Source: a virus. From it: a stretch of 28,284 nucleotides of DNA. The translations under genes and the position numbers were made by a program. The notes beneath the pieces were generated by a model. It worked only from the letters and a program-made list of their open reading frames with translations. It was not told the origin of the DNA and did no database searches. Numbering within the stretch: position 1 is the first letter of the stretch; every line of letters starts with the position of its first letter. Positions 8,018-28,247 of the stretch are shown here, piece after piece. The stretch covers positions 1-28,284 of the IMG/VR virus record IMGVR_UViG_3300009164_000277. The stretch is one strand, 5' to 3'.

Positions 8018-11000
8018 CTATTCAAGTTCAGGATATAACTTTAATTTTGTATATTTAGCATAATAATAATTTATACTAAACTGTGAAATAGGGATAATCT
8101 CTACTATAATCTTATCATCTTTATCATAATTTTGTGAAGATTTAATCTTATTTTCTAAATCAACCACCGTTGTTTGATTTGGTGTTTTACCCCCCAATAT
8201 TTTTATACCAGTATATGGTAACCCAGTTGATTCTTTAATGTCAGCAATAAATGTTATATCATAACCAGTTGAACCTGATTTAACAATGACATCAAATTTA
8301 ACAATTTCTGGATTAATATTTGAAGCATATATCTTAATTAAAGCATTTTCAATTTCTTTTACAACATTTTCAGTATAAAATAATTCCTCAGTTTTCTTGG
8401 CGCTATATTTAATTGTAATATTATATGGAACTGTTATCACACCTATCGACATACTTGTCACAACATTTGGTGCTTTATATGAAAAAATACAACCTTCTTC
8501 AACTGTTGTTATCTTCTTCTCCTTATTTAAGGAATTTTCCACTTTAACATAATTTTCTACTTCTTTCTCAAATGCTTTTGGATTTATTGCTTTTATACTA
8601 TCCCCAGCGGCTTTTGTTTTTAACTTTAATTTATCATAATATCCGCTAGCATTCAATTTAGCATAAGTATTTGAAGCATTAACTTCACCAATTGAATCCT
8701 CCCCATATAACCAAGATATTATATAAGCATCAACAATAGGCGCTCTGGTAGCATCAACCTCATTAACTTGCTCATAATAATCTAATTTCCCATAAACTCT
8801 GTCAATAACCCTAGCCATATAATCAATATATGAATCTAATGATGGGAAAATTGCATACGGTTGCTCGCTTGATGTAATCAAATTTTTTGAGCAAAAGAAT
8901 TGTTCAATATTTTGATTATAATTAGTTATAGTACCTCGATTATAGGTTAACCAAACATTACCAAAATTATAATGATTAGCCTTGAAATTATTATTATCAA
9001 ATGATGCCAAATATGAAATAATATAAATTAAATTAGAATAATTTGTATTTGGAACTTTTGCTGTTATTGCAGCATATAATTCTTTTGAAGATAATGTTTT
9101 AATATTAATTTCATTATTTTGTGTAAATCCAGTATATGTTGAATATAATAGAATACCACAACCACTACTGCTTGTTGGTACGCTCTTTCCACTTTGGTTG
9201 TTATTTGTTGGGGTATCCGTACCTATTATATCAGTCTTTATTGTTTTTGAAAACTGACTTTGTATCTTTGTTAATAAATTTTCATTAATACTCGCCAGAT
9301 AAGTATCTATCGTTGGGGGTGCATATATGCTTTGCCTAACCCCTTTAAATACCGTTTCAAAAGCACCGGGGCTTATTGTGTGACTAACCTCGGTAATGAA
9401 ATAAGGTCCTTCAAACATAGGTAAATGTTGCAATTTAAAATACATAGTTGGTTGAATTAACGCGTTACCCATACTTCTTATGGTTGCGGTATAACTCAAA
9501 TTTTTATATAAATTAAACATAGAAACATTTTGTGTTGCCACACCTCTGTTCGATACGGAATTTCTTATATTCTCAATCATTTGTAATGATTCTGCGGTAG
9601 CTGCCCCATTGTTTTGGTCAACATCAACACCATGAAATATTGCTTGATTTTGAACCCCAACATCAACAAGAAAGCTAACACATTTATTTGATTGCGACCA
9701 ATCTGTTTTGTTTGTCTGATCCTCCAAAAAAGGAATTTCTTGTGACCTATCCCAATCAAAAGAATCATCGTGAAATCTAAAATCTCTATTTCCTTTTAAT
9801 GTTGTAGAATCCCTACCAGAATAAACGCAAACCAATTTAGGTCCTGACTTTCTGTAATCAACGTCAGTAAATGTTCCCCAAGTATCATTAGCCACCTCTG
9901 TTGCACTTTGCACAACATCATTTATAGAATCCCCTGGTGATAACGCACCATAAAAATTAACATATGATGGCATTGGGAAAATATTAAAATTATTCTTCCT
10001 TAGAATACCCCCAATAAAATTAAAGATGGGCATATTAAGATTTATATTCCTATCGTTAAAAATCTTTTTTAAATCAAAAATATCAGCATAATATAAATCC
10101 CCTATATTCCTCGAACCTCTATCCAAGAATAATACATCCTCAAACAAAGTTCTGTTCTTATAATCCGATCCTGAAATCCATTTATCATTTATTGCCTTAA
10201 ATGTCTCATATAAATCATACTTGGATAATTTACTATCAACAGCCGTGTCCACAACATTAATTTGAGCAATCTCAACATTGCTAACTTTTTTCTTAACTTC
10301 TATCAAAGTTTGTGTTAAAGTATCTGACACCAGACCCAATAAAATATCTTGATTCGTTTTCAAACTAGAATAAAATCCATTTGATGTTAACTGGGGTAAT
10401 TTTAATTTTTGAGTTGCATACATTTTTATAAAATGCGAAAACTTAATTACATTAGATTCAGTAAACTCAATACTATTATCAATAAAGAAATCTGTAATAT
10501 AAGAACCCGTATCATCATACTTTAATTCATCTATTGTTGAAAACCCAACATGTAATTTAATCGCCTTCCAAGCTGCTGGATTTATTGCTTCTGAGGTTAA
10601 TAAAGAAACATCTTTAGGTAAACTATTCTTAACATATGGTCTGAAAGTTAGGGGGTTTGATATATTAGACTTGTTGCTAATATGTTTCATTAACGAATTA
10701 TATGTTATATTATTGTATTGCGTTGGATTACCAAACTTAAATAACACATCATAATCTAACAACCCAGATATAATCCTTTTAACATTGGTATCTTGATATG
10801 TCGCTGATTGAGTAATAAAATCAATATTAGTATTAAAGTTAGGGGGAACTTCCATTAGTTGCCTAAATAATAATTGGAAATTCCTATATTGTGTATTTTC
10901 ATCTTGATAATCTAAACCAAGTAAACTTATTTGTGCATCATCTTCAACATAATTAATATCATATATTGACTTGCTAAATTCCAAAAACTCCTTCTCAAAT

Positions 11001-14000
11001 AAGTTTAACGTATCATAGTCAAATACCGAAAAAATATCTTCAATACTACTATATGTGGTAGCCAAATCCATACCCAAAGTATAAGCATTATTTGTATCCT
11101 TTTGCGTATTTAGATATTCATTATAATTTGGTTTTTTTAAGTCGGTGAAATCAAAACTATTTACCTCGTCATTATACAATAATTTAATAGATCCATTATG
11201 CGCTACTTTTATTAAATCATCTTCTGTTAATGGTTGTGTTGTGCCTGATATTGTTTGTTTCCCAGAATTGAATGATGGTAATGTATAATAATTTGTATCG
11301 ACCCCATACTGGTTATCAAAACAATATCCAGAAAAAAATAACCCATCATAAATATTTTTTGGAACAAGTACGCTCCAATTGTTGAAGGTCAATCCACTAT
11401 AATTGTAATTATAATTATTTATAATTTTAAGCCCCCTATTCTGCAAATCAATTATTTCTTCCTTAGAATAATCCTTAAATAAATCAAAGCCATTTACAAA
11501 TACATTAAAATCATTCATTAACTTTGGATAAAATCCTGTATTAATGTTTTTATTATCTTTTAATGAGATTTTTTTATCCCCATTCACAAAATAATCAAAA
11601 TCTGGATTTGTATTATAATTTTGTTTATAATCAAAATCTTTCCAAACCTCATCCAGAATGTCAGTATTTGTGTTTACATAGTTTTTATACCTGTGCCATA
11701 TTGAACCGTATTTCAAAATCCAAGCATAAGGTAATTTATGAATAGCAGAATATTTTATAAACGATGCAAATAAAAATCCGTTTTTCTTATTTGTATTTTT
11801 ATTAATTAAAAAATCACTAAGATTAGATAATGGTAGCGAGTTTAAGAAAATATATGATGCTGCAATAAATGGATAATCAATATTAGACCTCCACTTCTGA
11901 ATACCAGAAATTATTGCATTTGTAAAAATAGGGGTGTTTAATAGAGATATCGTCTTACTAGATTCGTAGTTTTCTTGATATACATTCCCATACATTAAGT
12001 TATTATCAATAGGATCAGCAAAATACTTAAATGGTCTATTATTGATAATATCGTTTACATCCTTAAAATTAGTTATAACATTTCTACTAGAATTAAAAAA
12101 TACAGTATCCTTAGTATCATAAGAATCTGTTATATTGCTTATTTTAAAATTTAAATTTGTTTCAGTCCAAGCAGAATATGAGTAAGGGTAAAACCAATTA
12201 ATATTATCAATTATTGGTGCTTGTTTAATTTTATTCGATATTTCATCTATCTGGGACTTAGTTAATGTATTTATAAATTTATCACTTAATTTAGTAAATG
12301 TATCAATATTATATATTTGGCTGGGGTATGTTGCTAAATTATTTATGTAATTTGTGTTATAATAACCATCTAAATACCTCTGGTAGTTTTCTGAAACACC
12401 ATTAGATATTTGTAATAATAAATCATTATAATTATCCCCATTAAGTCCCCCATCTGAATTAAGATATTTTTGTAATTTTTGTAAAAACAAAATAGAATTT
12501 GATTCCAAACTTGTTTTAATATTATTTGATTCGTTTTTTGAAATAAATTTAATAATAGTTGTATCGCTTGTTTGGGGGATTAAGGCTAATCCAGATGTAT
12601 GTATTGAATAAAAATGCCTATCCCATATCTCATATAAAAATTGCGAATTTGATATTGAGAAATACGGTATATTACTAAATGGATATTCATTAGTGTTTAA
12701 AGTAAATCTAGTATTAATATATTCATCGCTATTCAGCACATCATTAATTGAGGGTGCATCAAAACTTTTAATCATACCCTTTAAATATTCTTCAACAAAT
12801 TCTACTTCGGGCCACTTATCATAGTAATATGCCTTTGTTGTTTGTATGATACTTGGATCCCCTGGATATATTAATTCATATTTATTAGCCTTTTCCTTAT
12901 TTGTTTCATAGAAAACTAGAGGCCAAGGAAATACAACTTTTTCTGCTTCTGGAATCTCTTGACTATCATCATTAATAACACTATTAAATCTATCTTTATC
13001 ATCCTTAACTGACCAAGCATTCTCATGTACATCTTCAAGTAATCGCAAAAACGCCTCCGTTGATGCCATAATAACAGCAATAATATTTTTAATCGTTGGA
13101 CTAAAACCTATACCCGTTTCTTTGTTTTCAATTTTCTTGGCTAATTCAAGACTTAATGTTCTTTCAATATTATTGTATTCTCTAATGAATGTTGATTCAA
13201 TATTATTTATTTCTTTTATAAATTTGTTCATTACAAAAAAAGGTGCAGTCTTCTTAACCCCATCTAATGTATAATCAATAAAAATTTTATTTCTAATATT
13301 TTTACAATACTCATTGGTGTTAACTGTTGGACTAATAAAGCCACCCCTAGATTCAAAACTTTTAGCACAGTCAATTTGGTCTTCTATTATTGTCGTAACA
13401 AGTAAATCGTATTTAATATTATTGTTTATTGAATGCGTTTTGTTTTCACCAAAAGTTTCATTCTCTAACAAAATTCTATTAAAATCATCAATAATCTTTT
13501 TTAATTCAGTTATTGCTAATTCTATTTTATTCTCCGCTGGATTTTTTGTTATATCATCTTTGAATGTGTAAATTAAATTTTCCTCGGTTGATATAGATGT
13601 ATTTTTCACATCAGTCTTTAATATAATAGGTCTTGAGTCAATATACTTAGTAAACCAAGACTTGGTATTACCCCTTATTGATTTATAGTAAAGTTCAATA
13701 TTTGATTTATATTTTTTACCATCAGTTAATTTTTGAACTTGGATTTTATTTAAAGAATTTAAAATGTTCTGCTCAAACATTTCTAATTTAAAAATTAATT
13801 GAGATAAAGTTAATTCTGGAAATGAGGGGTCTAGTAAATTTTTTGATTTATAATCTTTATATACTTCTATTACTTTTTGATATCCTAATTCAGTATTTAT
13901 TTCAAATTTTTCAATACTTTTGTTTGATGCTTTTTCAGTAGATACTTCGTACTTCTTAGTATACATGTGGGGGCAAGCCAATAAATGTCCAATACTAATA

Positions 14001-14698
14001 TCAGTTAAAACATTATACTTATAACCAAGGAATTCCAAATCAACCGAATAATCCCCAGATGAAGAATTAAACCTAGAATTAAACTTAATTAAAACTAATT
14101 CATATCTGACCGCCTTACCATAGTATCCCTTAATTGTTAAATAAAATGGTGGATATGGCAAATTAAAAAATGCTGAATATGGTGATTTATTACCTAAACT
14201 AAATAACGCCCTGCCTTGACTATCTTCCATAGTTATACTAACCGTTGGAATAAATGATGATGTCGTTTTTATTGATATATTCTTTATACCAAACAAACTA
14301 TTATCTTGCACATTAATAGCATCATTCTTAAAATAAGACCTATTCTCATCCACAACAACTTTAGATTCTTTTTGATTAACCCCATTGTTACTCATTGAGT
14401 TCCTACCTGTAAACTCATCATAATAACTAGCGGTGAAAAAATCATCCCCTGTATTAGGTTTTAAAAAATTAATACTAGCTAAAGATATTGTTCTAATATC
14501 ATCATTAACATTAGTACCAACTAATAATTTAGTTCTAGGTATTAGTTTAGTTTCGAGATTTGCATACATAACAAAATCTTCATGTCTAACACCCCTATCA
14601 TTAACCGTACCATCACTACTAACAATTTTATTTGGGTCAATATATATCACATTTTGGTAATCATATATAACCTTAATATCCCCTTGCTCATTTACCAT
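8018..14698 (-). CDS. Giant baseplate hub protein (gp27/gpD-like core with C-terminal lysozyme-like region)
   Basis: The 2226-residue protein is probably the central hub under the tail tube. Residues about 146-241 (ITMEDSQGRALFSLG ... YLTIKGYYG ... EFLGYKYNVLTDI) look like the first hub barrel of gp27/gpD/VgrG proteins. A long Asn/Tyr-rich insertion of about 1400 residues follows. Residues about 1680-1790 (IRSMGNALIQPTMYFKL, FEGPYFITEVSHTISPG, FKGVRQ) match the hub's second barrel. After a Ser/Thr/Asn linker near 1828-1845, residues about 1880-2040 (YNFGNVWLTYN, FPSLDSYIDYMARVI) resemble a GH73/lysozyme-like fold, but the usual catalytic Glu seems replaced. The last 130 residues are unassigned. 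It starts at ATG 14698, overlapping the gp53-like gene by 11 nt, so translation is probably coupled. T4 uses separate gp27 and gp5 for these jobs. Confidence 0.75.
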   Translation of the reverse strand: MVNEQGDIKVIYDYQNVIYIDPNKIVSSDGTVNDRGVRHEDFVMYANLETKLIPRTKLLVGTNVNDDIRTISLASINFLKPNTGDDFFTASYYDEFTGRNSMSNNGVNQKESKVVVDENRSYFKNDAINVQDNSLFGIKNISIKTTSSFIPTVSITMEDSQGRALFSLGNKSPYSAFFNLPYPPFYLTIKGYYGKAVRYELVLIKFNSRFNSSSGDYSVDLEFLGYKYNVLTDISIGHLLACPHMYTKKYEVSTEKASNKSIEKFEINTELGYQKVIEVYKDYKSKNLLDPSFPELTLSQLIFKLEMFEQNILNSLNKIQVQKLTDGKKYKSNIELYYKSIRGNTKSWFTKYIDSRPIILKTDVKNTSISTEENLIYTFKDDITKNPAENKIELAITELKKIIDDFNRILLENETFGENKTHSINNNIKYDLLVTTIIEDQIDCAKSFESRGGFISPTVNTNEYCKNIRNKIFIDYTLDGVKKTAPFFVMNKFIKEINNIESTFIREYNNIERTLSLELAKKIENKETGIGFSPTIKNIIAVIMASTEAFLRLLEDVHENAWSVKDDKDRFNSVINDDSQEIPEAEKVVFPWPLVFYETNKEKANKYELIYPGDPSIIQTTKAYYYDKWPEVEFVEEYLKGMIKSFDAPSINDVLNSDEYINTRFTLNTNEYPFSNIPYFSISNSQFLYEIWDRHFYSIHTSGLALIPQTSDTTIIKFISKNESNNIKTSLESNSILFLQKLQKYLNSDGGLNGDNYNDLLLQISNGVSENYQRYLDGYYNTNYINNLATYPSQIYNIDTFTKLSDKFINTLTKSQIDEISNKIKQAPIIDNINWFYPYSYSAWTETNLNFKISNITDSYDTKDTVFFNSSRNVITNFKDVNDIINNRPFKYFADPIDNNLMYGNVYQENYESSKTISLLNTPIFTNAIISGIQKWRSNIDYPFIAASYIFLNSLPLSNLSDFLINKNTNKKNGFLFASFIKYSAIHKLPYAWILKYGSIWHRYKNYVNTNTDILDEVWKDFDYKQNYNTNPDFDYFVNGDKKISLKDNKNINTGFYPKLMNDFNVFVNGFDLFKDYSKEEIIDLQNRGLKIINNYNYNYSGLTFNNWSVLVPKNIYDGLFFSGYCFDNQYGVDTNYYTLPSFNSGKQTISGTTQPLTEDDLIKVAHNGSIKLLYNDEVNSFDFTDLKKPNYNEYLNTQKDTNNAYTLGMDLATTYSSIEDIFSVFDYDTLNLFEKEFLEFSKSIYDINYVEDDAQISLLGLDYQDENTQYRNFQLLFRQLMEVPPNFNTNIDFITQSATYQDTNVKRIISGLLDYDVLFKFGNPTQYNNITYNSLMKHISNKSNISNPLTFRPYVKNSLPKDVSLLTSEAINPAAWKAIKLHVGFSTIDELKYDDTGSYITDFFIDNSIEFTESNVIKFSHFIKMYATQKLKLPQLTSNGFYSSLKTNQDILLGLVSDTLTQTLIEVKKKVSNVEIAQINVVDTAVDSKLSKYDLYETFKAINDKWISGSDYKNRTLFEDVLFLDRGSRNIGDLYYADIFDLKKIFNDRNINLNMPIFNFIGGILRKNNFNIFPMPSYVNFYGALSPGDSINDVVQSATEVANDTWGTFTDVDYRKSGPKLVCVYSGRDSTTLKGNRDFRFHDDSFDWDRSQEIPFLEDQTNKTDWSQSNKCVSFLVDVGVQNQAIFHGVDVDQNNGAATAESLQMIENIRNSVSNRGVATQNVSMFNLYKNLSYTATIRSMGNALIQPTMYFKLQHLPMFEGPYFITEVSHTISPGAFETVFKGVRQSIYAPPTIDTYLASINENLLTKIQSQFSKTIKTDIIGTDTPTNNNQSGKSVPTSSSGCGILLYSTYTGFTQNNEINIKTLSSKELYAAITAKVPNTNYSNLIYIISYLASFDNNNFKANHYNFGNVWLTYNRGTITNYNQNIEQFFCSKNLITSSEQPYAIFPSLDSYIDYMARVIDRVYGKLDYYEQVNEVDATRAPIVDAYIISWLYGEDSIGEVNASNTYAKLNASGYYDKLKLKTKAAGDSIKAINPKAFEKEVENYVKVENSLNKEKKITTVEEGCIFSYKAPNVVTSMSIGVITVPYNITIKYSAKKTEELFYTENVVKEIENALIKIYASNINPEIVKFDVIVKSGSTGYDITFIADIKESTGLPYTGIKILGGKTPNQTTVVDLENKIKSSQNYDKDDKIIVEIIPISQFSINYYYAKYTKLKLYPELE

Positions 14699-15011: not shown

Positions 15012-18000
15012 TTATTTTGATAATTTATTTTTAACTAAAATAAAATTGTTTTTATTCATATTCCAAGTTTTATGATTTGTAGAATCATAATCTAACTTAC
15101 TATTTAGATTAAACAAAGCATCTTTTATATTATTATCTGGGTTTTGTATAAATAAGTAAGAATATTTAAATTTATCTTCTGTAATTTCTATTCCTTTAAT
15201 TACATTAACACTTTTTGTTTTTTCTGAAACTAATGTTGTTTTATATGTAGATTCACCTTCAGATTTTAATGTATCATAATTACTAATCAAACTATTCCAA
15301 TAATCATCAAATATTTTTTTGATAGTATTATTATAAATAACATTATCATTAGATAGTGATTTTAATAAAATTTTAGTTTTAAAATCATTTAAATTTTCTT
15401 TATTCTTTAATATACCATAAAATAAAAAATATATTAAACTTTCTTGTTTGCTGTCTGATTTTATTGTATCTGGATTAACTTTTCCATTATTAATATAATT
15501 AATAATATTTTTAATTTCATTTTTGGCGCTACCTAATAAATCTTTAATAGGTTTTGGATCCATAGTCAATTTATAACTCTTACTATTACCATCTTTATCC
15601 AAATACCCATCATAACCTTCAGCACCTTGATATGTAGATGTAACAAACAATAATTTTGATACTACTCTTTGATAGTTTTCTTGTGCTTTTATTAACGAAT
15701 TAACAAATGAATTGACATCTTCTTTTAATTTACCAAATTCATCGTCAAGATATTTGATATAATTTGCACTTACCTCGGATTCTATTTCTTTTTTATTTTT
15801 AAATTCTATCTTTATTTTACTAATAAATAAATCACTACCATCTTGAATGGCCTTTTTAATCTCGTTTAATATACTATCTAAACTTGGTGAGTAACTAGTT
15901 GGAATACCTAATAACGAAAACGCATCACTAGAATTAGTTAAATACACACCAATACTATTATTAACAGTAGTTAGTATATATTTTATAAAATCAGAATTAT
16001 ACCTTTTTAAGTTTTCTTCCACAATTGAACTTATTGTCGATATATAGGCAATAGTTTCATCTTTCATTAATTTAGCAATAGTAGAATAATTAAGCATTCC
16101 AGATGTTTCATCTATCACACCAAAGCTAACTGACTCCTCTATTAGCCCAATAGTCGTATAGGAATTTGTTGTTTGGTCTGGATTATTATTTTCTTCTGCA
16201 ACTTTTTCTTTTTCTTTAATATAATCTAATATTTTTTTATCAGTATCATTTAAACTTTCATCGGTAACATCGGCTTTTGGGTCATATACTTCGGTATTAG
16301 CATAATAATTAAAGTTCAAAGCATTTTGTAATTTATCTATTGCATTTGCTAACCCATGTCCCCCCACAAATGTAAATCCTAAATTAACCTTTGCAATCAT
16401 AGGTTGAACCCCAATCCCTTCTGGGTTTAAATCCAGCTTTTCATAAGTAAGACCTAATGTGTTTGGTATTATTTTCGTATGGAAGAAGTCACCCACCCTT
16501 AATACTAATATTGGTGGAATACCAAAAGATGTATTTTTCGCATCTTTAAAATCTTTTACCCCATCCTTCTTTATTGTTGGTATAGTATTTCCTGGTCTAA
16601 CACATTGTTGCAAAAATGTTAATCTACCGTTTAACCCCTCTGGAGTTGTTGAATGGAATGCTGGATTAAAATACTTTAATTTTTCTTTTAAATTACTATA
16701 TAAGAAAGGGTCTGTTTCTTCAATTGTTTGAAAATAATCACATTCTGATAATAATTTTTGTAAAACTTTCTTAGATACATTCCTATATAATTTAGTTTCT
16801 ACCGTTGATATTTTTTTCTCCTTAGTTTGTCTTTTTATTAAAACATCTGATGATGTTGTCGTAGTAGTTGGTTCTTTTTTAGGTGGTTTTGTTGATTTTT
16901 TTGCAGTTATATTACTTATTAATGTTCTTCTACAAGCCATCGCTTGTTGACTATAAATCTTATCCCCTTTAAAATTTTCACAACTTTCAACTGTATAACT
17001 ACTACCCCCTCCAAAACTTTTAGCTGTAACACCTTTCCTTTCACCTTCAGAAACAATACTTCCAAATATTAACCTTTTATTGTTTTTAATTTGGGATAAG
17101 ATATAATCTGTAACAATTTTATTACGCCTATCACCTAATTTATCGTTATACTCAATGGTTTGCGGTTTAGAAGCCGACCCAATTAATTCAATTGTTATTT
17201 CATTATTAGGGTCTTCCAAAAATTTATTAGCCTTTTTAATAAATTCTTTAATAGCTAAAAAATTATTTTCAATATATAACTCTTTAAATTGTTTTAAATC
17301 CAATCTATTATTATAAGAAGCCTTTTTAATATATGCATCATATGTTTGTTCATAAGTCATAGTATTAGTTGTAAGTGGTATATCATTATCAAAATAAAAT
17401 GATAATGATTTATATTTATCAAATTCAGGGTCAGTTTCAACAACTCGCTCCTCAGTTTCATCCGTAGTTGAGGGGTCTTTACTTGTAATAAATGTTCTGT
17501 TTATTAATTCAACATCATCCTTTATTTCATAACTTTCTTGCACTTGTTTCTGTATCTCCTCTAATTCGGAAAGAGTCATCGTATTATATATTTTAGCTAA
17601 CTCATACAAATCATATTTTAGACATCCAGAAAAGAATGATTCTAATATACCATTAATTTGTTCAGCGTCACTTTGATTATCTAATATTCTGTTAGTTAAT
17701 ACATTTAAAACTGATGGATGATCCACAACAATACTAAATTCTAATGACCCCGTTCTACTAGTTGACTTATATGTATAAACAGGTTCTGGTCTTCCTAAAA
17801 ATTCATTTGGGCTAAAACTTGCTGTTGATGAATCTGAAAATTTCAAATCGTAAGGGGGAAACCACATTATTCTACCACCATTTGGTCCTTTCTCGCATTC
17901 AGGTAAATCCAAATATAGGCTAGATGTTCTCCAAGCCAAGTTCTCAATAGACAACATAAATTTTTTACTATCATTACCCTTTTTAGGATATATGCTCAAA

Positions 18001-19709
18001 TCGTATGTTTTATTTAAAACTGAATTTTTCATTTGTCTTCCCTCGCTAACTATACCATCTTTCTTCTGTAATCTGCTATATGTTAGAAAAGGAGTATCTT
18101 TTGTAAATAACCTACAATATTCTTCAAATGTACCGCCATTAACGTTTGGTGAGTATTTTCTAACCCTAGAACCTTTCGTTATTTCTTTATAACCATCATT
18201 AAAAACTTTACTAACTTGGTCTATTGCATTACCTACATGCTTTAACTTATTGCCATTATTTGGTTGTGATTCAACTAACTTCTGGGTATCATACATTATT
18301 GACCCAGGCTTCATATCATATTCAGTTGTTTCGGTAGTCTCAAATGTTGTTTGTTTGGTATTTGAATCCCCAAACACTTGACCATTTAATCCAACGTTCT
18401 TTCCTGCATTGTTTTTATATTTAGGTGACACCCAAGTCAACCCCCCCTCTATACTACCGCCATCTGTAAACGATTTACCATTTGCGCCTATCTTTGGGTT
18501 AAATGATTCCCCCTCATATAACTTTGATATCTCTGATGGCCCATAAACAGGAGTTTGTACTTTTCTACCAAATTGGTCTTCTGGTAAATCTTTCTGTGGA
18601 CTTAAAACATCTGTCGGATCCAAATCATAACTCCCAACATAATAACCATTTTTATTCTTTGTGAACAAATCAGTAAACCCACCTAATACACTATTTTTCT
18701 TATAGTTTGGTCTATATAAATTATATTCTATATTTGAAAATAATATTGATTTTTGTCCCTTACCTGTGTTATCGAAAAATAATTGGCTTCCTGTTTTTTT
18801 CTGCTGGAATATTCCCCCTAGAAAACCTTTAGTTCCTTTACCAGTTAAACTAATCGTGGGGTCAAAGTAACTTCCAACTATTGTAGGGAAAGGTAATTCT
18901 GCTCCAGCTAATTCTAAGGCTAATTGTGCTGCTCCAAATATAAAATTATTTGTCCTAGTTATCGTCCATATAGGTTCAATAATTGGTTTCGTTCCAGTTA
19001 TTAAGTTGTAAACATCTAAGGGGTCATTGATATCTGATATCGCATTTTCAAACCTTGTTAAGATATTGTACTTGTCAATAAATCTACCAATCCTATCTTC
19101 AAAATAACCACTTAATTTTTCCGCACCTAATCTAACAATATAAGAATCTTCTTTTAATTTTGATACCGTATTTGCATTCTCCGTAAAAATATCAAATGCT
19201 GTATATTCTGATGGCTTAAATGATGAACTACCATTTAACCAATAATATAATATATCTTTCTTTTTTAAATTTGTATCAAACCAATAATCATCGCTGTTTA
19301 TAAAAACACCAGCATCTGCATATATATCTTGACTAGTATTAACACCTGAATAAAAGTTATTTACAATGTTATCGTTTAGTTTAGGTAAGCTATTTACTAG
19401 TAAATTCGTTTTACTAAAGTTATATTCACCATAATTGGTCTTATCATTTTTTAATGTACCAACATCAGTAACCAATTGATAACCACCATCTCGACCATAC
19501 TGATTTAGCACATAAGCCTTATCTGCTAACACTTTTGTATCAATTAAGTAGTCTGGTGAATCTATAACAGAATAATCATTTAGAGGCGATACTTCATATG
19601 TAAATGGTGGAGTTTTACCATAGGGGGATTTACTATAAGGAACTAAATTCCTTAACATTAATTTTTTTCTAAATTCTTCACTATTTCCAAAATCTAAAAT
19701 ACTACGCAT
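15012..19709 (-). CDS. Large baseplate/tube-junction protein with OmpA-like domain
   Basis: The 1565-residue protein lies between tape measure and wedge genes, where T4 has gp48 and gp54, the platform for tube assembly. Residues about 610-665 (MWFPPYDLKFS, SPNEFLGRPEPVYTYKST, TGSLEFSIVVDHPS) look like a tube-initiator or adaptor barrel. Residues about 835-905 (IELIGSASKPQTIEYNDKL then GDRRNKIVTDYIL) match an OmpA C-terminal-like peptidoglycan-binding domain. The Arg pair is kept, but GSAS replaces the usual GHxD. A Thr-rich linker (about 935-950) leads to residues about 1000-1120 with IPPILVLRVGDFF, EGIGVQPMIAKVNLGFTF and VGGHG, again tube-junction-like. The last 400 residues are helical and coiled. 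A TGATATTTAT element lies 16 nt before the ATG. Confidence 0.7.
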   Translation of the reverse strand: MRSILDFGNSEEFRKKLMLRNLVPYSKSPYGKTPPFTYEVSPLNDYSVIDSPDYLIDTKVLADKAYVLNQYGRDGGYQLVTDVGTLKNDKTNYGEYNFSKTNLLVNSLPKLNDNIVNNFYSGVNTSQDIYADAGVFINSDDYWFDTNLKKKDILYYWLNGSSSFKPSEYTAFDIFTENANTVSKLKEDSYIVRLGAEKLSGYFEDRIGRFIDKYNILTRFENAISDINDPLDVYNLITGTKPIIEPIWTITRTNNFIFGAAQLALELAGAELPFPTIVGSYFDPTISLTGKGTKGFLGGIFQQKKTGSQLFFDNTGKGQKSILFSNIEYNLYRPNYKKNSVLGGFTDLFTKNKNGYYVGSYDLDPTDVLSPQKDLPEDQFGRKVQTPVYGPSEISKLYEGESFNPKIGANGKSFTDGGSIEGGLTWVSPKYKNNAGKNVGLNGQVFGDSNTKQTTFETTETTEYDMKPGSIMYDTQKLVESQPNNGNKLKHVGNAIDQVSKVFNDGYKEITKGSRVRKYSPNVNGGTFEEYCRLFTKDTPFLTYSRLQKKDGIVSEGRQMKNSVLNKTYDLSIYPKKGNDSKKFMLSIENLAWRTSSLYLDLPECEKGPNGGRIMWFPPYDLKFSDSSTASFSPNEFLGRPEPVYTYKSTSRTGSLEFSIVVDHPSVLNVLTNRILDNQSDAEQINGILESFFSGCLKYDLYELAKIYNTMTLSELEEIQKQVQESYEIKDDVELINRTFITSKDPSTTDETEERVVETDPEFDKYKSLSFYFDNDIPLTTNTMTYEQTYDAYIKKASYNNRLDLKQFKELYIENNFLAIKEFIKKANKFLEDPNNEITIELIGSASKPQTIEYNDKLGDRRNKIVTDYILSQIKNNKRLIFGSIVSEGERKGVTAKSFGGGSSYTVESCENFKGDKIYSQQAMACRRTLISNITAKKSTKPPKKEPTTTTTSSDVLIKRQTKEKKISTVETKLYRNVSKKVLQKLLSECDYFQTIEETDPFLYSNLKEKLKYFNPAFHSTTPEGLNGRLTFLQQCVRPGNTIPTIKKDGVKDFKDAKNTSFGIPPILVLRVGDFFHTKIIPNTLGLTYEKLDLNPEGIGVQPMIAKVNLGFTFVGGHGLANAIDKLQNALNFNYYANTEVYDPKADVTDESLNDTDKKILDYIKEKEKVAEENNNPDQTTNSYTTIGLIEESVSFGVIDETSGMLNYSTIAKLMKDETIAYISTISSIVEENLKRYNSDFIKYILTTVNNSIGVYLTNSSDAFSLLGIPTSYSPSLDSILNEIKKAIQDGSDLFISKIKIEFKNKKEIESEVSANYIKYLDDEFGKLKEDVNSFVNSLIKAQENYQRVVSKLLFVTSTYQGAEGYDGYLDKDGNSKSYKLTMDPKPIKDLLGSAKNEIKNIINYINNGKVNPDTIKSDSKQESLIYFLFYGILKNKENLNDFKTKILLKSLSNDNVIYNNTIKKIFDDYWNSLISNYDTLKSEGESTYKTTLVSEKTKSVNVIKGIEITEDKFKYSYLFIQNPDNNIKDALFNLNSKLDYDSTNHKTWNMNKNNFILVKNKLSK

Positions 19710-19748: not shown

Positions 19749-21581
19749 TTAACCCATTGCCCTAAGATCCATGGTATGACTAATTTTGTTAGTCAGATTT
19801 TGTGTATTATTATGATTAAAAACTTGGGTTATAAGTTTTTTGTCAATAAATTGCCCTGATTCATTTTTAAAATTAAGTTCAACATTAACAGCCAATTGAC
19901 TTGGTGGTTGATTGTTAGAACTATTTGAACTCCCCTTTATTTTTTCATTCAAAGACTCCGGGTTATTTATTGCTTTATATGATATTGCACCAACTTTTGG
20001 TTCTGGAGATAAATTGACTCCTTTACCTATAATATCAGTTAAGTCACCAAAAAGAGTATTAAGTTGAATCATATATTTTTCAAAATTCAGTTCACTACCA
20101 ATCCTAGATTCTTTCACCCCCCTAGCAATATTATTCGGAATTTCTTGTATATAACCCCCAACCGCTTGAAATATTTTTACCATTTCTTCACCAAAATCTC
20201 CACCTTTATACATTTGACCAACTGGGTCAGCAACACCTCTTATTGTTTTTCTAGCCACATCAGCATTTGGAATACCTTTGTATAATATATCACCTAAGTC
20301 ACCAGCAACTGTTCTTGCACCCTCTTGGAATTTACCAACAACTGATTGCTCACCAACAAAACCAAATAGTAATTTATTTTTAATTGCATTAGCATCATTT
20401 TGTATTAATTGTTGTATATTCATTGAATCTCTAGTTAAATCCTCTAATGTTTTTGGTTCTTCTTTTGATAATTCATTTAACTTATTAATTTGTTTATCTG
20501 TCAAATCTTTTACTGCCGTGGCAATACTTTCACCTGTTTTCTCATCAGTAACTTTTATTTTATATTCATTATCAGCATCTAAATAAGCTAGATTGGCAAT
20601 AAACATTTTTTGGTCATCACTCAAATTAAACTTAATATCAATTTCACTAGCCCTAGCATTAAATTCAGCCAAATTTAATGACATTTTTTTAAATTCACCA
20701 ACACCTACACCAGCCGCTTCAGCCAAAGCCTTCATTTGACCCATAGCACTTGGATTTATTTCAAATCTGCCAGCCTCTTCATTAAATTGTGTAAATTTTT
20801 CACCTGCCGAAGCTAAGTTCATTATTAACCCTTCTGGGTCATTTAATGACTTATTCATTAAAGTAAAAGGATCTGCTAAATCGCCCACAAATACCCCCAG
20901 ACGTTGGAACGCTGCTGCGGTCTCTATTGCACCCTCTGGCTCAAAAACTTTGTCTGCAAACGAAGCTATGTCCCTCATACTAACTTTAATGATGCTTGCT
21001 TGCGCTGCCATTTTTGTAAAACCCTCAACGCCATCTTTAAATGAAAATCTATTCAATAAATCTGTATTATCAACAACATCACCTATGACAGTTCTAGCAT
21101 CAACACCAACAGTTCTAACATATTGTAATGATTTTTCTAAATTTTCCCCAATTTTAGAAGTCATAATACCAGCCTCGGAAAAATTACGAATAAGAGTTTC
21201 AGTACCCTTACCTAATAATTGTTGTGCTGCAAATAATTTTTCATAAACTTCTGGTTCAAATATAACATTTCTCCCCATAGCAGAAGTAGAGTCATTAATA
21301 ATGTCAACAACATTTTGTAAATTTCCCCCTAATTTGGCAACCAAAGGTGCTGTATCTGCAATTGCTAATTTAAACTCACTTATTCTTGTTCTTGAAAGTA
21401 CTAACTGATAATTTACTGCTGACGCTCCTTTCTCTAATTCATTAAAAGCCGTTTTAAAATCAAAAAAATTTTTTGTTATACTCTTTAAATCAACATCAAA
21501 AAATTTAGTTAATTCATTTAATGTGTTCCCAACCCCACTTAAAATACCTTTACCTTTTTCTTTATCTTTATCGTCTACCAT
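19749..21581 (-). CDS. 29: Tail tape measure protein
   Basis: The 610-residue, mostly helical protein follows the tail assembly chaperone gene and precedes the baseplate junction gene, the standard place for the tape measure. Its length is near T4 gp29 (590). It is Ala/Gly/Lys-rich with few aromatics and no cysteine. Stretches such as SVVGKFQEGARTVAGDLGDI and MKALAEAAGVGVGEFKKMS are typical of tape measures. A Ser/Asn/Pro-rich segment (about 545-562) precedes a beta-rich C-terminal part (QLAVNVELNFKNESGQF). At about 0.15 nm per residue it would set a tail of roughly 90 nm. No separate domain such as a peptidase is visible. The start is ATG 21581, 15 nt after a variant late element. Confidence 0.82.
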   Translation of the reverse strand: MVDDKDKEKGKGILSGVGNTLNELTKFFDVDLKSITKNFFDFKTAFNELEKGASAVNYQLVLSRTRISEFKLAIADTAPLVAKLGGNLQNVVDIINDSTSAMGRNVIFEPEVYEKLFAAQQLLGKGTETLIRNFSEAGIMTSKIGENLEKSLQYVRTVGVDARTVIGDVVDNTDLLNRFSFKDGVEGFTKMAAQASIIKVSMRDIASFADKVFEPEGAIETAAAFQRLGVFVGDLADPFTLMNKSLNDPEGLIMNLASAGEKFTQFNEEAGRFEINPSAMGQMKALAEAAGVGVGEFKKMSLNLAEFNARASEIDIKFNLSDDQKMFIANLAYLDADNEYKIKVTDEKTGESIATAVKDLTDKQINKLNELSKEEPKTLEDLTRDSMNIQQLIQNDANAIKNKLLFGFVGEQSVVGKFQEGARTVAGDLGDILYKGIPNADVARKTIRGVADPVGQMYKGGDFGEEMVKIFQAVGGYIQEIPNNIARGVKESRIGSELNFEKYMIQLNTLFGDLTDIIGKGVNLSPEPKVGAISYKAINNPESLNEKIKGSSNSSNNQPPSQLAVNVELNFKNESGQFIDKKLITQVFNHNNTQNLTNKISHTMDLRAMG

Positions 21582-21604: not shown

Positions 21605-21635
21605 AATAAGGAATGATTTTTAATCATTCCTTATT
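21605..21635 (-). terminator. Perfect 14-bp hairpin upstream of the tape measure gene
   Basis: Arms AATAAGGAATGATT and AATCATTCCTTATT are perfectly complementary around a TTT loop on the plus strand. On the minus strand it lies just after, and overlapping, the stop codon of the +1-frame ORF (21626-21624), and it is followed by a T-rich stretch. A weak, GC-poor terminator or an RNA-stabilising end is likely. It could also be a structure that tunes tape measure expression. Confidence 0.6.
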
Positions 21636-21800
21636 ATCTTCAATCCATTTATTTATTAAAAATTTTCTTATAAAGATTGGCATTGCTAAGAAGTCAGAAT
21701 AGGATACATGTAATAACTTAGTTAAATAATAATATTCAGTTAGTTGACCTAATCTATATTCCGAAGAAAGGGCGAAAAAACTCCACCCCAAACCCAGCAT
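21624..21800 (-). CDS. Overlapping +1-frame ORF at the end of the gp26-like gene; candidate frameshift extension or separate small protein
   Basis: A 58-codon frame from ATG 21800 to TGA 21624 overlaps the last 47 nt of the gp26-like gene in the +1 frame and fills the otherwise empty gap before the tape measure. Its peptide looks protein-like: SSEYRLGQLTEYYYLTKLL, HVSYSDFLAMPIFIRKFL, ending INKWIEDNKE, with alternating aromatic and charged helix patterns. An in-frame stop lies shortly upstream of its ATG, so any read-through must shift within the overlap. The main frame there reads GAG TTT TTT CGC, where TTT could slip +1 to TTC, giving a 292-residue fusion (243 + 49). Many phages make the tail assembly chaperone pair by frameshifting at this position. 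Internal initiation at the ATG is the alternative. Confidence 0.6.
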   Translation of the reverse strand: MLGLGWSFFALSSEYRLGQLTEYYYLTKLLHVSYSDFLAMPIFIRKFLINKWIEDNKE

Positions 21801-22503
21801 ACACTGTGGTCATATCTCCTGATGGGGTCATTATATCTCTTTTTAAATCAAGTTTAGGCTCGTTATTACTCAAAAATTTCTTAATGAATTTTGAATCAGC
21901 AATTGGCATTCCTTCAACATATTTTGCAATATATGCCTTATCCTCACTACCATTAATACTAATAATCTCTTTGGATAATCTTAATGTTACTCTTGGCGCA
22001 GTTCTACCTTGGGGGTAGCTTTCAATAATATCATTTATTTGTAAAATTTCCCCGTAAGTTAAAGGCTTTAATTTTATTACATCCCCAGACTTAGGTAAAG
22101 CTAGTTCATATAAACCCTCAGAATTTGGAGGCGAACCAGTGATTATGGTTAACTCTTCCAAGCTAACATTAACTTTAAATCTATTATTTGTTTTGGGGTC
22201 AACTGCCATAAGTTCCATATCAGAACCAAATGAAGTATTTCTTAAAAAGATTAATATTGCTTCAATATCACCTTCTATCATTTCTTCAGGTCTTAAATCT
22301 GGTTCGTATATTTTATTCTTTAACAATTGTAATGTGAAATTCTTTGATGCACCTAGCAAAAGGTTTTCATCGGATGCTGTTAAATAACCAACTTTTACTG
22401 ACTTTTTTTTATTTTTATAAAAAATACCTCTTGATGGTAACTCTACTACATCGTGGGGTAAGTCAAAATTGGCTTGAGCATATTCGTATGTCTTATCTTC
22501 CAT
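21754..22503 (-). CDS. 26: gp26-like tail assembly chaperone / baseplate hub subunit
   Basis: The 249-residue protein is encoded between tail tube and tape measure, the slot used by tail assembly chaperones. It has the pattern LPSRGIFYKN (23-32), KVGYLTASDENLL, a run with EEMIEGDIEAILIFLRNTSFG (an acidic helix then 'LR-x-x-S-x-G'), and a second beta part (DVIKLKPLTYGEILQINDII). This fits the T4-type gp26/baseplate family as I remember it; T4 gp26 has 208 residues. The C-terminus GFGVEFFRPFFGI carries the T6 run where the overlapping +1 frame could be entered. The start is ATG 22503, nine bases after an ATATTTTTAT element. Soluble, with no membrane segment. Confidence 0.68.
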   Translation of the reverse strand: MEDKTYEYAQANFDLPHDVVELPSRGIFYKNKKKSVKVGYLTASDENLLLGASKNFTLQLLKNKIYEPDLRPEEMIEGDIEAILIFLRNTSFGSDMELMAVDPKTNNRFKVNVSLEELTIITGSPPNSEGLYELALPKSGDVIKLKPLTYGEILQINDIIESYPQGRTAPRVTLRLSKEIISINGSEDKAYIAKYVEGMPIADSKFIKKFLSNNEPKLDLKRDIMTPSGDMTTVYAGFGVEFFRPFFGI

Positions 22504-22600: not shown

Positions 22601-23089
22601 TTAATAAACAAGAATACATCTATCTGGTTGCATTGTTGCATCAATATCTACTAAATTATTATTAGAATAACCCAAAGCACCAAAATTAACATTTGTCAAT
22701 AGACAACCTTGTAATATCCATCTTTCAATAACAACACCCGTTGGGTCTAAAAGTTCCAAGTCAACATCTTTCTTATATCCAGCAGCGTAACCAGACCTAC
22801 CAGTAACAGATTCAGAATGAAGTCTAACCCACTCCATTAACGCTTGTGTTGCAGATGGACCAATAGGGTCTCTAAACTTTACATTAATAGTGTTCCATGT
22901 AAATCTACCAGAAACAAATGTTGATGTATTTAAGAATTGTATTTCAACTGGATCCATTTTAATACTAGGTCTCGAAGTTGATTCTACAAACCACTCATTT
23001 ATTCCCATACTAGAAGGAAACCTTAAAATGAACCTATTTTGCCTTTTTGGTTCATATGGTAAAGGCATTTTCATAAGTAAATCCGCCAT
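22601..23089 (-). CDS. 19: Tail tube protein, gp19-like
   Basis: The 162 residues match T4 gp19 (163) in size. The protein forms stacked hexamer rings that make the inner tube. The pattern fits the family: PKRQNRFILRFPSSMGINEWFV (residues 14-35, a strand then loop), RPSIKMDPVEIQFLNTSTFV, then TWNTINVKFRDPIGPSATQALMEWV with the 'R-D-P-x-x-P-S' turn, and DVDLELLDPTGVVIERWIL-QGC near the C-terminus. It has a long 5' leader: the AGATATTTAT element lies 46 nt before ATG 23089, unlike the 15-21 nt of its neighbours. It is separated from the sheath gene by about 2 kb holding the HAD and glucosaminidase genes, whereas in T4 genes 18 and 19 are adjacent. Confidence 0.92.
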   Translation of the reverse strand: MADLLMKMPLPYEPKRQNRFILRFPSSMGINEWFVESTSRPSIKMDPVEIQFLNTSTFVSGRFTWNTINVKFRDPIGPSATQALMEWVRLHSESVTGRSGYAAGYKKDVDLELLDPTGVVIERWILQGCLLTNVNFGALGYSNNNLVDIDATMQPDRCILVY

Positions 23090-25118: not shown

Positions 25119-28100
25119 TTATATATCTTCAAACGAAGCACCAGTAGGTGTTATCACAAATTCCAACGAGATAAATTCAAGACTGCGAGTCGGCTTAATG
25201 TATATTTTACCGCTCATTGTATTTCTATCAATATCTTCTGGGTCAGATGAAACTGTAACACGGAAATCAGTTAAGCCACGATCCCTTCTGATAGCGTCTA
25301 GGATTGGATTTACGGTGTCCAAAAACTGTTGGCGGACTATCTGGTCATTTTGTTCAAAAAGTAATCTCACGGCAACCGCAGAGATTAATTTACGTGCTTG
25401 CAATAGTAACCTTCTAACGTTAAGTCTATTTAATGCAGACTCTCTAACTTGTAATGTTTTATTACCCCAAATTACGGTATTCACATCAGAGAATGTTGCA
25501 ATAGGATTTATTCTACCTTGGTATAACACATCTCTTTCGTCTTGTGTAAGTTTAAGTCTTGCTTTTACTGAATTAACCAAACCTCTACTATAACCAGCAG
25601 ATGCAAACCAAGGGAATGCCACGTTATCAGTTAATGCTAAGTTTCTACAAACTTCTCCTGTTGGTGGAATATAAACTTGTGTGTTGTTTGTTGTATCTCT
25701 AACCAAAATCCAAGGGTAATATGTTGCGGTATAATTTGAATCAATATTTGTTTCCTCCAAAGAAACAATTGATTCTTGTGGATATATATATGCTTTTGTA
25801 TTTGTATCTAATAAATCAGCATCTGGCGTTGTTGTTATATAAATTGAATCTGCTCTATCGTTTTCAACCATATCAATAGCTGCCTCAACCAAATTACTAT
25901 TATTAACATAATCAATACCTGGGGTAACGAATACATTAATATTAACTGATTCTGGGTTTTTATATGTTAAAACACCTTTTAAGTAAGCATAATAATCTGT
26001 TGTTGCAAAATCAATAGAATTATCACCTTCAGCAATTTGTTTAAAGGTACCTTGACCAGTAGCCGCAGCATAATTTCCTGATACACTTTTGGCTCCCCTC
26101 ATATAACCTAATCCACCAAGAATGTACTCATCGCCATTTGTTCTTCTTTCAGAATATATATCCCAACCATCAAAACCACCTTCAAATAGAAGAGTGAATT
26201 TTCTTGAGTATAAATAGTAGTAAGGATTATCATTGGTATCTGGCTCAGAACTAAATTGACCTGCTCCTACCTCAAAAGCAGTTTGTCCGCTAGATAAATA
26301 TGAATTACCAATTGTAACAATTGATGCTCTTGAATCCATATGGAAACCTTTTGTTATTATATTCCATTCACTACCATCTGATATGATGTTTGTAGGATTT
26401 TGTTTTCCTTTGTATTGTAAGAATGAATTATCATAACCATAATTTGTTGAAAATCCCAAATATGTTCTCTTTATATTATCTGCATTAACTGTATTACTTG
26501 TTGCGAAAGGTTGATTATAAACAACTTGATTGTTGTAATAGTATTGATTCTTATATAAAATGCCTGGTGTTTTGGCTGCACCATATTTTCTATGTGGATA
26601 CCCAATAAAACCACAAGGTAACGCATCGTTAGGAAACTCATCAGACATTTCAATCATAATATACTTTGATATTAAATTGTACTCCCCATCATTTGTTCCT
26701 ATTTTTTTGGCTATAAAGCTATTTGAATTACTATCCAAAGTACAATTTGTATACTTTTCAAGTATAACTGGTGCAGAATCACTATCATAAAAACTCCTAA
26801 CTAAAACATCAAAAGTTCTATTTTTGAATGAAACATTAACAATTGAAATTTTAACTTCAGCGTTAGCATTTGAACCATCTGAAATTGAGATAAATTTAAA
26901 TAAATTATATACTTTATTACCTCTCAATTCTGATACAACATATGGTGTTTTAGGTGATTGGTATCTTTCTAAATACCAACCTATCGAACTTGAATTACCG
27001 CTTCTAGCTTGACTAGTGTATGTTAAATCCAATCTTAATCCCCTTATGTATCCTTTTTGATACATTTGTTTCAATAAATTTGGGTAATGTTCTTCAATAA
27101 AGATAGGCGTCTCTTCTTTCGGTTTTTCAAAATTACCAGCACCTAAAACATTTGTTATATAATTTGAATTGGTATCTAACATAGATACATTAAATGTAAA
27201 GTTTTTATTTTTTGTAGTATTGCCACTTAATATAAAATCACCAAAAGGATTGTTTGTTATATTTGAACTATTGCTTGAATCAATTTTTAAAGAATTATTT
27301 AATAATTCATATACTTGACCATGTTCTGTATTAGAATAACTTGTTAAACCTCTTGACCTAATTGTTGCAATTACAACATTATCGTAATCTGAATATGTTA
27401 AACCAGAAAATTCATATATCACACCAATTGCGTCAACTTTGGTTTCAATTTCATTTTTTTCAAATTTTGTTATATAATAATAAAATGAATATCCACTATA
27501 TCTACCATTTAATAAATTTGTAAATGTGCCATAAAACCAAGGGAAATTCTCTGATTTTGGCGTTCCATTAGTGTTAAGTGGAATTATAGTATTAAAATGG
27601 TTTGTGATTCCAGATGTTGAAGATTGAGTAATATTGTTATTATATATTTCTGGGGGTATTGATCCATAATATTGTGTTTGTGCTGATAGTGAACTATCTA
27701 AAGGTACACCATTTACTAAATCTTTAAAATCGTCAAAATATGTTGAGAATACACCATTTGGTTTTTGGCGTATAGTTTCTGTAAAATCAGCATAACTTAT
27801 GTATCTATTATTAGATAATACAAGATTTTCAGTATCACTTGTTTCAGTATATTTTATTGAGAAACTTTGACTATCTCCTATATATTTAATTGTTGTTGTC
27901 TCACAATTACCAATAGTTTTTATTGACCATGATGGACCAGCATCATAACCAGACAATCCTAAAATTCTAGTAACATACATCTGGTTTGATTGTTGTAAAT
28001 ATGACTTAGCTATATACGCTGATTCATATTTTGGAATTTGTGTGTTTACATATTTTTCTGGAGATGTTCCGCCAAAATATGTTTGATATTCATCATAATT

Positions 28101-28247
28101 TGATATAAATATAGGTTCGAAAGCTGGCCCTTTTAACGTTTCACCAACCATCCCTAATGTAGTAACACCAACACTTTGCGAAACAAATGTTAAATCTGTT
28201 TCTGAAGTATATACACCTGGTGATACAAATACTTTTTGATTTGCCAT
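25119..28247 (-). CDS. 18: Tail sheath protein, gp18-like, enlarged
   Basis: This forms the contractile outer tail. The N-terminus (FVSPGVYTSETDL ... GVTTLGMVGETLKGPAFEP ... DEYQTYFGG, residues 7-60) and the C-terminus (about 835-1042: YYPWILVRD, FPWFASAGYSRGLV, LTQDERDVLY, VIWGNKTLQV, RRLLLQARKLISA, FISLEFVITPTG) match the conserved sheath core. At 1042 residues it is far larger than T4 gp18 (659). The excess lies between the conserved ends, mainly about 110-640, a Ser/Asn/Thr-rich, beta-type region that should face outward. The segment FVTPGIDYVNN...AAIDMVENDRAD (about 775-805) rejoins the core. It starts at ATG 28247, 21 nt after an AGATATTTAT element, and is probably transcribed alone up to the terminator. 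Confidence 0.93.
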   Translation of the reverse strand: MANQKVFVSPGVYTSETDLTFVSQSVGVTTLGMVGETLKGPAFEPIFISNYDEYQTYFGGTSPEKYVNTQIPKYESAYIAKSYLQQSNQMYVTRILGLSGYDAGPSWSIKTIGNCETTTIKYIGDSQSFSIKYTETSDTENLVLSNNRYISYADFTETIRQKPNGVFSTYFDDFKDLVNGVPLDSSLSAQTQYYGSIPPEIYNNNITQSSTSGITNHFNTIIPLNTNGTPKSENFPWFYGTFTNLLNGRYSGYSFYYYITKFEKNEIETKVDAIGVIYEFSGLTYSDYDNVVIATIRSRGLTSYSNTEHGQVYELLNNSLKIDSSNSSNITNNPFGDFILSGNTTKNKNFTFNVSMLDTNSNYITNVLGAGNFEKPKEETPIFIEEHYPNLLKQMYQKGYIRGLRLDLTYTSQARSGNSSSIGWYLERYQSPKTPYVVSELRGNKVYNLFKFISISDGSNANAEVKISIVNVSFKNRTFDVLVRSFYDSDSAPVILEKYTNCTLDSNSNSFIAKKIGTNDGEYNLISKYIMIEMSDEFPNDALPCGFIGYPHRKYGAAKTPGILYKNQYYYNNQVVYNQPFATSNTVNADNIKRTYLGFSTNYGYDNSFLQYKGKQNPTNIISDGSEWNIITKGFHMDSRASIVTIGNSYLSSGQTAFEVGAGQFSSEPDTNDNPYYYLYSRKFTLLFEGGFDGWDIYSERRTNGDEYILGGLGYMRGAKSVSGNYAAATGQGTFKQIAEGDNSIDFATTDYYAYLKGVLTYKNPESVNINVFVTPGIDYVNNSNLVEAAIDMVENDRADSIYITTTPDADLLDTNTKAYIYPQESIVSLEETNIDSNYTATYYPWILVRDTTNNTQVYIPPTGEVCRNLALTDNVAFPWFASAGYSRGLVNSVKARLKLTQDERDVLYQGRINPIATFSDVNTVIWGNKTLQVRESALNRLNVRRLLLQARKLISAVAVRLLFEQNDQIVRQQFLDTVNPILDAIRRDRGLTDFRVTVSSDPEDIDRNTMSGKIYIKPTRSLEFISLEFVITPTGASFEDI

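Follow-up and report, generated by a model that had tools for sequence, protein, structure and literature searches.

Tail assembly chaperones produced by frameshifting are already known from lambda and other phages (reviewed in PMC5009743). The lambda proteins gpG and gpGT, encoded between the tail tube and tape measure genes, are a short form and a rare, frameshifted long form, and the haloarchaeal myovirus HSTV-2 provides a very likely +1 case (PMC5009743). Two further papers (PMC10885494, PMC12846349) credit Vladimirov et al. 2022 with treating gp26 and gp51 as the tail assembly chaperones of T4-like phages, encoded by a short and a long gene, and also with poly-T −1 sites in T4-like phages. 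A poly-T slippery site also lies in the tail chaperone gene of SPP1 (17.5/17.5*) and of the Vandenendeviridae, but the shifts described there are −1 (PMC6316719, PMC12846349), unlike the +1 shift proposed here. The lambda shift is −1 as well, whereas the gene described here is a member of the T4 gp26/gp51 family; its likeness to gpG/gpGT lies in position and arrangement.

The window, a 28,284-nt stretch of viral DNA, encodes UvsX-, gp32- and DnaB-like proteins as well as tail proteins (a sheath and a gp19-like tube), profile matches that mark it as a fragment of a T4-like myovirus. Within its tail region, the following features were delineated:

22601..23089, minus strand: neighbouring tail tube protein gene (phrog_4542, E = 1.2e-28)
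21754..22503, minus strand: short form (TAC-N), a gp26-like tail assembly chaperone of 249 aa in the zero frame (phrog_150, E = 4e-11; PF12322)
21624..22503, minus strand: putative long form (TAC-NC), a gp51-like fusion of 292 aa (translation through a +1 slip, alignment with T4 gp51, C-terminal profile comparison)
21798..21800, minus strand: ATG in the +1 frame, neither conserved nor needed (19 of 60 close loci have no ATG before the site)
21775..21780, minus strand: slippery TTT TTT, with the second codon (21775-21777) as putative P-site codon, followed by C21774 (all 136 distinct loci have the second TTT with T or C after it)
21772..21774, minus strand: zero-frame A-site codon CGC (CGY in the close group, for the most part TGG in the distant group)
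21624..21773, minus strand: C-terminal extension in the +1 frame, 49 codons and TGA (open in all loci; dN/dS 0.17; homology)
21605..21635, minus strand: terminator-like hairpin with a 14-bp stem over the extension stop, ahead of the tape measure gene
19749..21581, minus strand: neighbouring candidate tape measure gene, assigned by position alone, as in the Immutovirus and LIS04 gene order

The short form scored 32.1 bits against PF12322 (T4_baseplate; cut-off 24.5), and both this family and phrog_150 also take in T4 gp26 and gp51. Its AlphaFold model (pLDDT 85.5) resembles predicted T4-like baseplate hub assembly proteins, while a fold search of the PDB gave no match; the fusion, modelled by single-sequence AlphaFold, reached a pLDDT of 31.7 and this model was set aside. 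The local gene order (tube, gp26-like gene, extension, tape measure) places the gp26-like gene between the tail tube and a tape measure assigned by position, as in G/GT-type chaperones. In Immutovirus and LIS04, the next gene after the same arrangement is an annotated tape measure; the putative tape measure of the window had no significant match of its own among PHROG and Pfam profiles. Terminator-like hairpins such as the one at the extension stop are expected 0.7 times in shuffled sequences, against the one found.

The gp26-like gene ends in GTG GAG TTT TTT CGC CCT TTC TTC GGA ATA TAG. An earlier note on this DNA, made from its letters and open reading frames, had placed the end of the gene at 21754 and had proposed that a +1 slip from TTT to TTC on GAG TTT TTT CGC gives a 292-residue fusion; the coordinates and sequence of the gene (21754-22503, 249 aa) are correct, and the site reads as described. 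The ATG-started +1 ORF that it had reported (21800..21624, 58 aa, 47-nt overlap with the gp26-like gene) is likewise present, but the open stretch of this frame begins earlier, at 21809, and runs down to the TGA at 21624-21626 (61 codons, 56-nt overlap), and the ATG is not conserved and probably irrelevant. Positions 21754-21773 of the extension would be read in both frames.

This arrangement very probably reflects a +1 programmed ribosomal frameshift by which the tail assembly chaperone is made in two forms, a short one of 249 aa and a long one of 292 aa. Most ribosomes would stop at 21754 and release the short form. In a fraction of them, peptidyl-tRNA-Phe, paired in the P site with the second UUU of GAG UUU UUU CGC ahead of a slow A-site codon, would slip by +1 and re-pair from UUU to the overlapping UUC. 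The shifted ribosomes would then read the +1 frame to 21624, producing the 292-aa form with its gp51-type C-terminal domain. By analogy with lambda gpG/gpGT, the N-terminal part common to both forms would serve to coat the tape measure, and the C-terminal domain to bring in tail tube subunits. Sequence comparisons show the arrangement and its conservation, the +1 frame and the homologies; from these we infer the occurrence and rate of the shift and the roles of both products.

Three scans of IMG/VR returned 13, 80 and 80 loci, from which removal of identical copies left 60 close (group A2) and 76 distant (group A3) sequences; among these 136 distinct sequences are the window itself and two records of cultured phages or megaphages, and 167 loci were tested altogether. 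All 167 loci present the same arrangement: towards its end, the gp26-like gene has a TTT in frame with T or C as the next base. The site reads TTY TTT Y in 135 of the 136 distinct loci (with TTC as the codon before the slip TTT in eight) and AAC TTT C in the remaining one (L018); the latter, reading AAC TTT CTA, is also the only one of the 136 without CC two codons past the slip TTT. The homopolymer is T6 in the window and T7 in most distant loci. Outside this core, the GXN1 site is GAA TTC TTT C and that of Immutovirus AGC TTT C, while the LIS04 site (TTT TTT A) is compatible only with a slip of the first UUU. Along the gene, synonymous codon conservation is highest over the final codons and at the site (0.83 versus a median of 0.57).

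The distribution of stop codons in the +1 frame changes at the site. Over the 40 codons upstream, the +1 frame contains 297 stops in 2400 codons in the close group and 258 in 2960 in the distant group, the nearest lying 3 codons upstream of the site, whereas the 46 codons from the site onward contain none in the 134 full-length loci of both groups. The constraint on the +1 frame therefore starts at the site. Over the extension, the other two frames carry stops in 60/60 and 60/60 close loci and in 69/73 and 73/73 distant loci, and shuffling puts the probability of an open extension frame below 1% per sequence. The extension lies in the +1 frame in both groups, and the −1 frame of the Kyanoviridae type was not encountered in either. 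A distant gp26-like gene, that of Stenotrophomonas phage RAS14 (L019), carries a −1-frame extension, at AGT TTT TTT ATC, and the direction of the shift therefore varies within the wider family.

On its substitution pattern, the extension is under purifying selection in the close group, with a dN/dS of 0.17 that equals that of the gene body. In the distant group the extension has a dN/dS of 0.57 versus 0.13 in the gene body, a higher value that is probably due in part to variable tails. The open +1 frame is thus more than chance. The earlier note had proposed three comparisons among related phages, all of which turned out in its favor: the T6-C site is retained in every one of the 136 distinct loci as a TTT with T or C after it, the +1 extension is free of stops (0/60 close and 0/73 distant loci with one), and its dN/dS in the close group is like that of the gene body. 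Site, open frame and dN/dS thereby lend support to its reading of the locus as a probable frameshifted tail chaperone between tube and tape measure.

Profile comparison revealed homology between the extensions of the close group and those of the distant group (E = 5e-10); the two sets combined are also homologous to the extensions of SP-15, LIS04 and GXN1 (E = 5e-10). An hhalign comparison of the fusion alignment (A4) with single T4 gp51 or gp26 sequences was uninformative before families were pooled. The pooled +1 extensions matched the C-terminus of gp51 and its cyanophage equivalent (E = 7e-7, probability 92%, score 35.4), with column-shuffled controls scoring at most 15.4. The extension of the close group alone does not reach gp51, the link running via the distant group. 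The conserved part of the extension starts at the slip site. Because of these C-terminal homologies, the 292-aa form can be considered the counterpart of T4 gp51 and the 249-aa form that of T4 gp26, which bears out the gp51-like character that the earlier note had attributed to the extension, as the gp51 C-terminal domain, but not its alternative of a separate small protein as a general mechanism. Some extensions in the alignment of window positions 21627-21773 with relatives (A6) also weakly match PF20546 (DUF6760; best E 0.0079), phrog_634 (hub assembly catalyst) and phrog_32580 (tail assembly chaperone).

Other routes to the same products were weighed against these data. A −2 shift, as reported for phage Mu, would end in the same frame as a +1 shift, and the TTT TTT C of the window permits re-pairing after −2 too. 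The two are separated by the variants TTC TTT C, TTC TTT T, AGC TTT C, AAC TTT C and GAA TTC TTT C: a −2 shift would bring tRNA-Phe to UCU at the TTC TTT sites, to GCU in Immutovirus and to ACU in L018, whereas +1 pairing is intact in all of them. Cognate re-pairing (UUU to UUC or UUU) is kept by +1 alone across all site variants, and we consider a −2 shift very unlikely.

The extension might instead be a small gp51-like protein in its own right, initiated within the gp26-like gene at the ATG at 21800, in line with cyanophage annotation: P-SSM2, S-PM2 and HTVC008M have a 'gp51' or 'hub assembly catalyst' of 45-57 aa annotated right after gp26, and the Immutovirus record annotates a 36-aa ORF. 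Yet no ATG, GTG or TTG precedes the site in the +1 frame in L012, in 6 of the 60 close loci and in 39 of the 76 distant loci, and the extension frame of HTVC008M has no start codon ahead of the gp26 stop. Because so many loci lack such a start codon, a separately initiated small protein, the alternative raised in the earlier note, is excluded as the general mechanism. The +1 stops reaching down to 3 codons upstream, the onset of conservation at the slip site itself and the fusion of the extension domain to a gp26-like body in T4 gp51 also stand against independent initiation, which is in our view highly improbable.

Slippage of RNA polymerase on the T run, with the long form translated from an edited mRNA, would find a homopolymer of T6, or of T7 in most distant loci. 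Six Ts are nonetheless short for efficient polymerase slippage, loci with TTC TTT C and AAC TTT C keep the arrangement with runs of three Ts, and the codon phase of the run is fixed by selection, leaving little credit for this explanation. A sequencing error or a decayed gene, in which a recent indel split one ORF, is refuted by the comparative data and has next to no probability: homopolymers are prone to error, but the phase is identical throughout, both in the 136 distinct sequences, which come from many samples, and in complete genomes of cultured phages, and dN/dS is 0.17 on both sides of the site in the close group.

A +1 ribosomal shift at this site invites comparison with T4 and the cyanophages. 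T4 gp26 and gp51 share their N-terminal family (PF12322, phrog_150) with the present gene, and the C-terminal domain of the T4 long form is homologous to the extension, but in T4 the two forms are encoded by two genes on opposite strands, whereas here there is one gene and an overlapping +1 frame. Two phrog_150 matches are found in T4, and one each in a 55-kb relative (G001) and the complete Immutovirus; the latter two agree with the single copy in the window, itself a fragment, in showing no T4-type two-gene arrangement. On a phylogenetic tree, T4-type gp26 and gp51 group together, apart from the frameshifters (100/100), in a topology where long branches meet and no outgroup fixes the root.

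The Kyanoviridae (P-SSM2, S-PM2, HTVC008M) resemble the present locus in their overlapping other-frame extension, in its C-terminal domain and in a TTTTTTC or T7 junction. Their phrog_150 matches fall into two overlapping pieces, gp26 and a −1-frame piece that shows homology with the C-terminus of gp51 (E = 2e-10), joined at AGT TTT TTC, TCT TTT TTC or AGT TTT TTT. Cyanophages thus appear, from these junctions, to make their longer form by a −1 slip: in the phase ..T TTT TTC the extension is in the −1 frame, whereas here the same heptamer in another phase (TTT TTT C) leads into a +1 extension. In these three cyanophages/pelagiphages (L204, L205, L206), the small 'gp51' is probably no gene of its own but the extension of gp26 reached by a −1 frameshift. 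Two genes in T4, a −1 shift on U UUU UUC in cyanophages and a +1 shift on UUU UUU C here look like three routes to one protein pair. A broader scenario, in which mostly uncultured large T4-like lineages use the +1 UUU-Y site, the cyanophage −1 heptamer is re-phased and duplication replaced recoding on the T4 branch, is in our estimation as easily wrong as right.

Examination of the surroundings of the site for stimulatory elements disclosed no conserved RNA structure (fold z = −0.64; a weak 6-bp hairpin and no covarying pairs). In the window, a GGAG lies 3 nt ahead of the slip codon, the spacing seen in prfB, but this Shine-Dalgarno-like sequence was rejected as a conserved stimulator because it is missing in two loci (L007 and L013). 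Separately, all 60 close loci have, without exception, a GGGG that lies 12 to 9 nt ahead of the slip codon (21786-21789 on the minus strand); it takes in the wobble position of a Gly codon, a base that the protein does not require, and is a possible cis element.

None of the annotated public records examined, including those of Immutovirus, LIS04, P-SSM2, S-PM2 and HTVC008M, annotates a shift. As far as could be checked, it appears to be new that the gp26/gp51 family has a +1 UUU-Y site, that this site occurs so broadly, and that it differs in phase from the −1 site of cyanophages. These findings place a putative recoding event, conserved and unannotated, in T4-like phages that form a common aquatic group, would explain the small 'gp51' and 'hypothetical' ORFs beside gp26 as the C-terminal part of a long chaperone, and make it testable how the long/short pair switched among a −1 shift, a +1 shift and two genes. 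A UUU-UUY site with neither a conserved Shine-Dalgarno sequence nor RNA structure would also be a useful object for studies of +1 shifting, the more so since the hosts appear not to use Shine-Dalgarno initiation.

Most genes in the window have A-rich leaders without Shine-Dalgarno motifs, and because of these leaders a Bacteroidota host is suggested; a cultured relative with the same arrangement, Immutovirus immuto, infects Flavobacterium (sp. LMO8). The tail region also contains two giant ORFs on the minus strand, 8018-14698 (2226 aa), with no Pfam match, and 15012-19709 (1565 aa), with no PHROG match. In the tail sheath protein (25119-28247, minus strand, 1042 aa), sheath domains match residues 750-1033 only, and the protein therefore has a large additional N-terminal part. 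The ribonucleotide reductase small-chain gene (99-2057, minus strand) contains an apparent intein at about residues 97-423 (CHGEGTEILTPKGWVNF...VLISGN|S), with the reductase profile matches lying mostly downstream of it; inside it are matches to PhoH, thymidylate synthase and ribonucleotide reductase phage families, which can share inteins.
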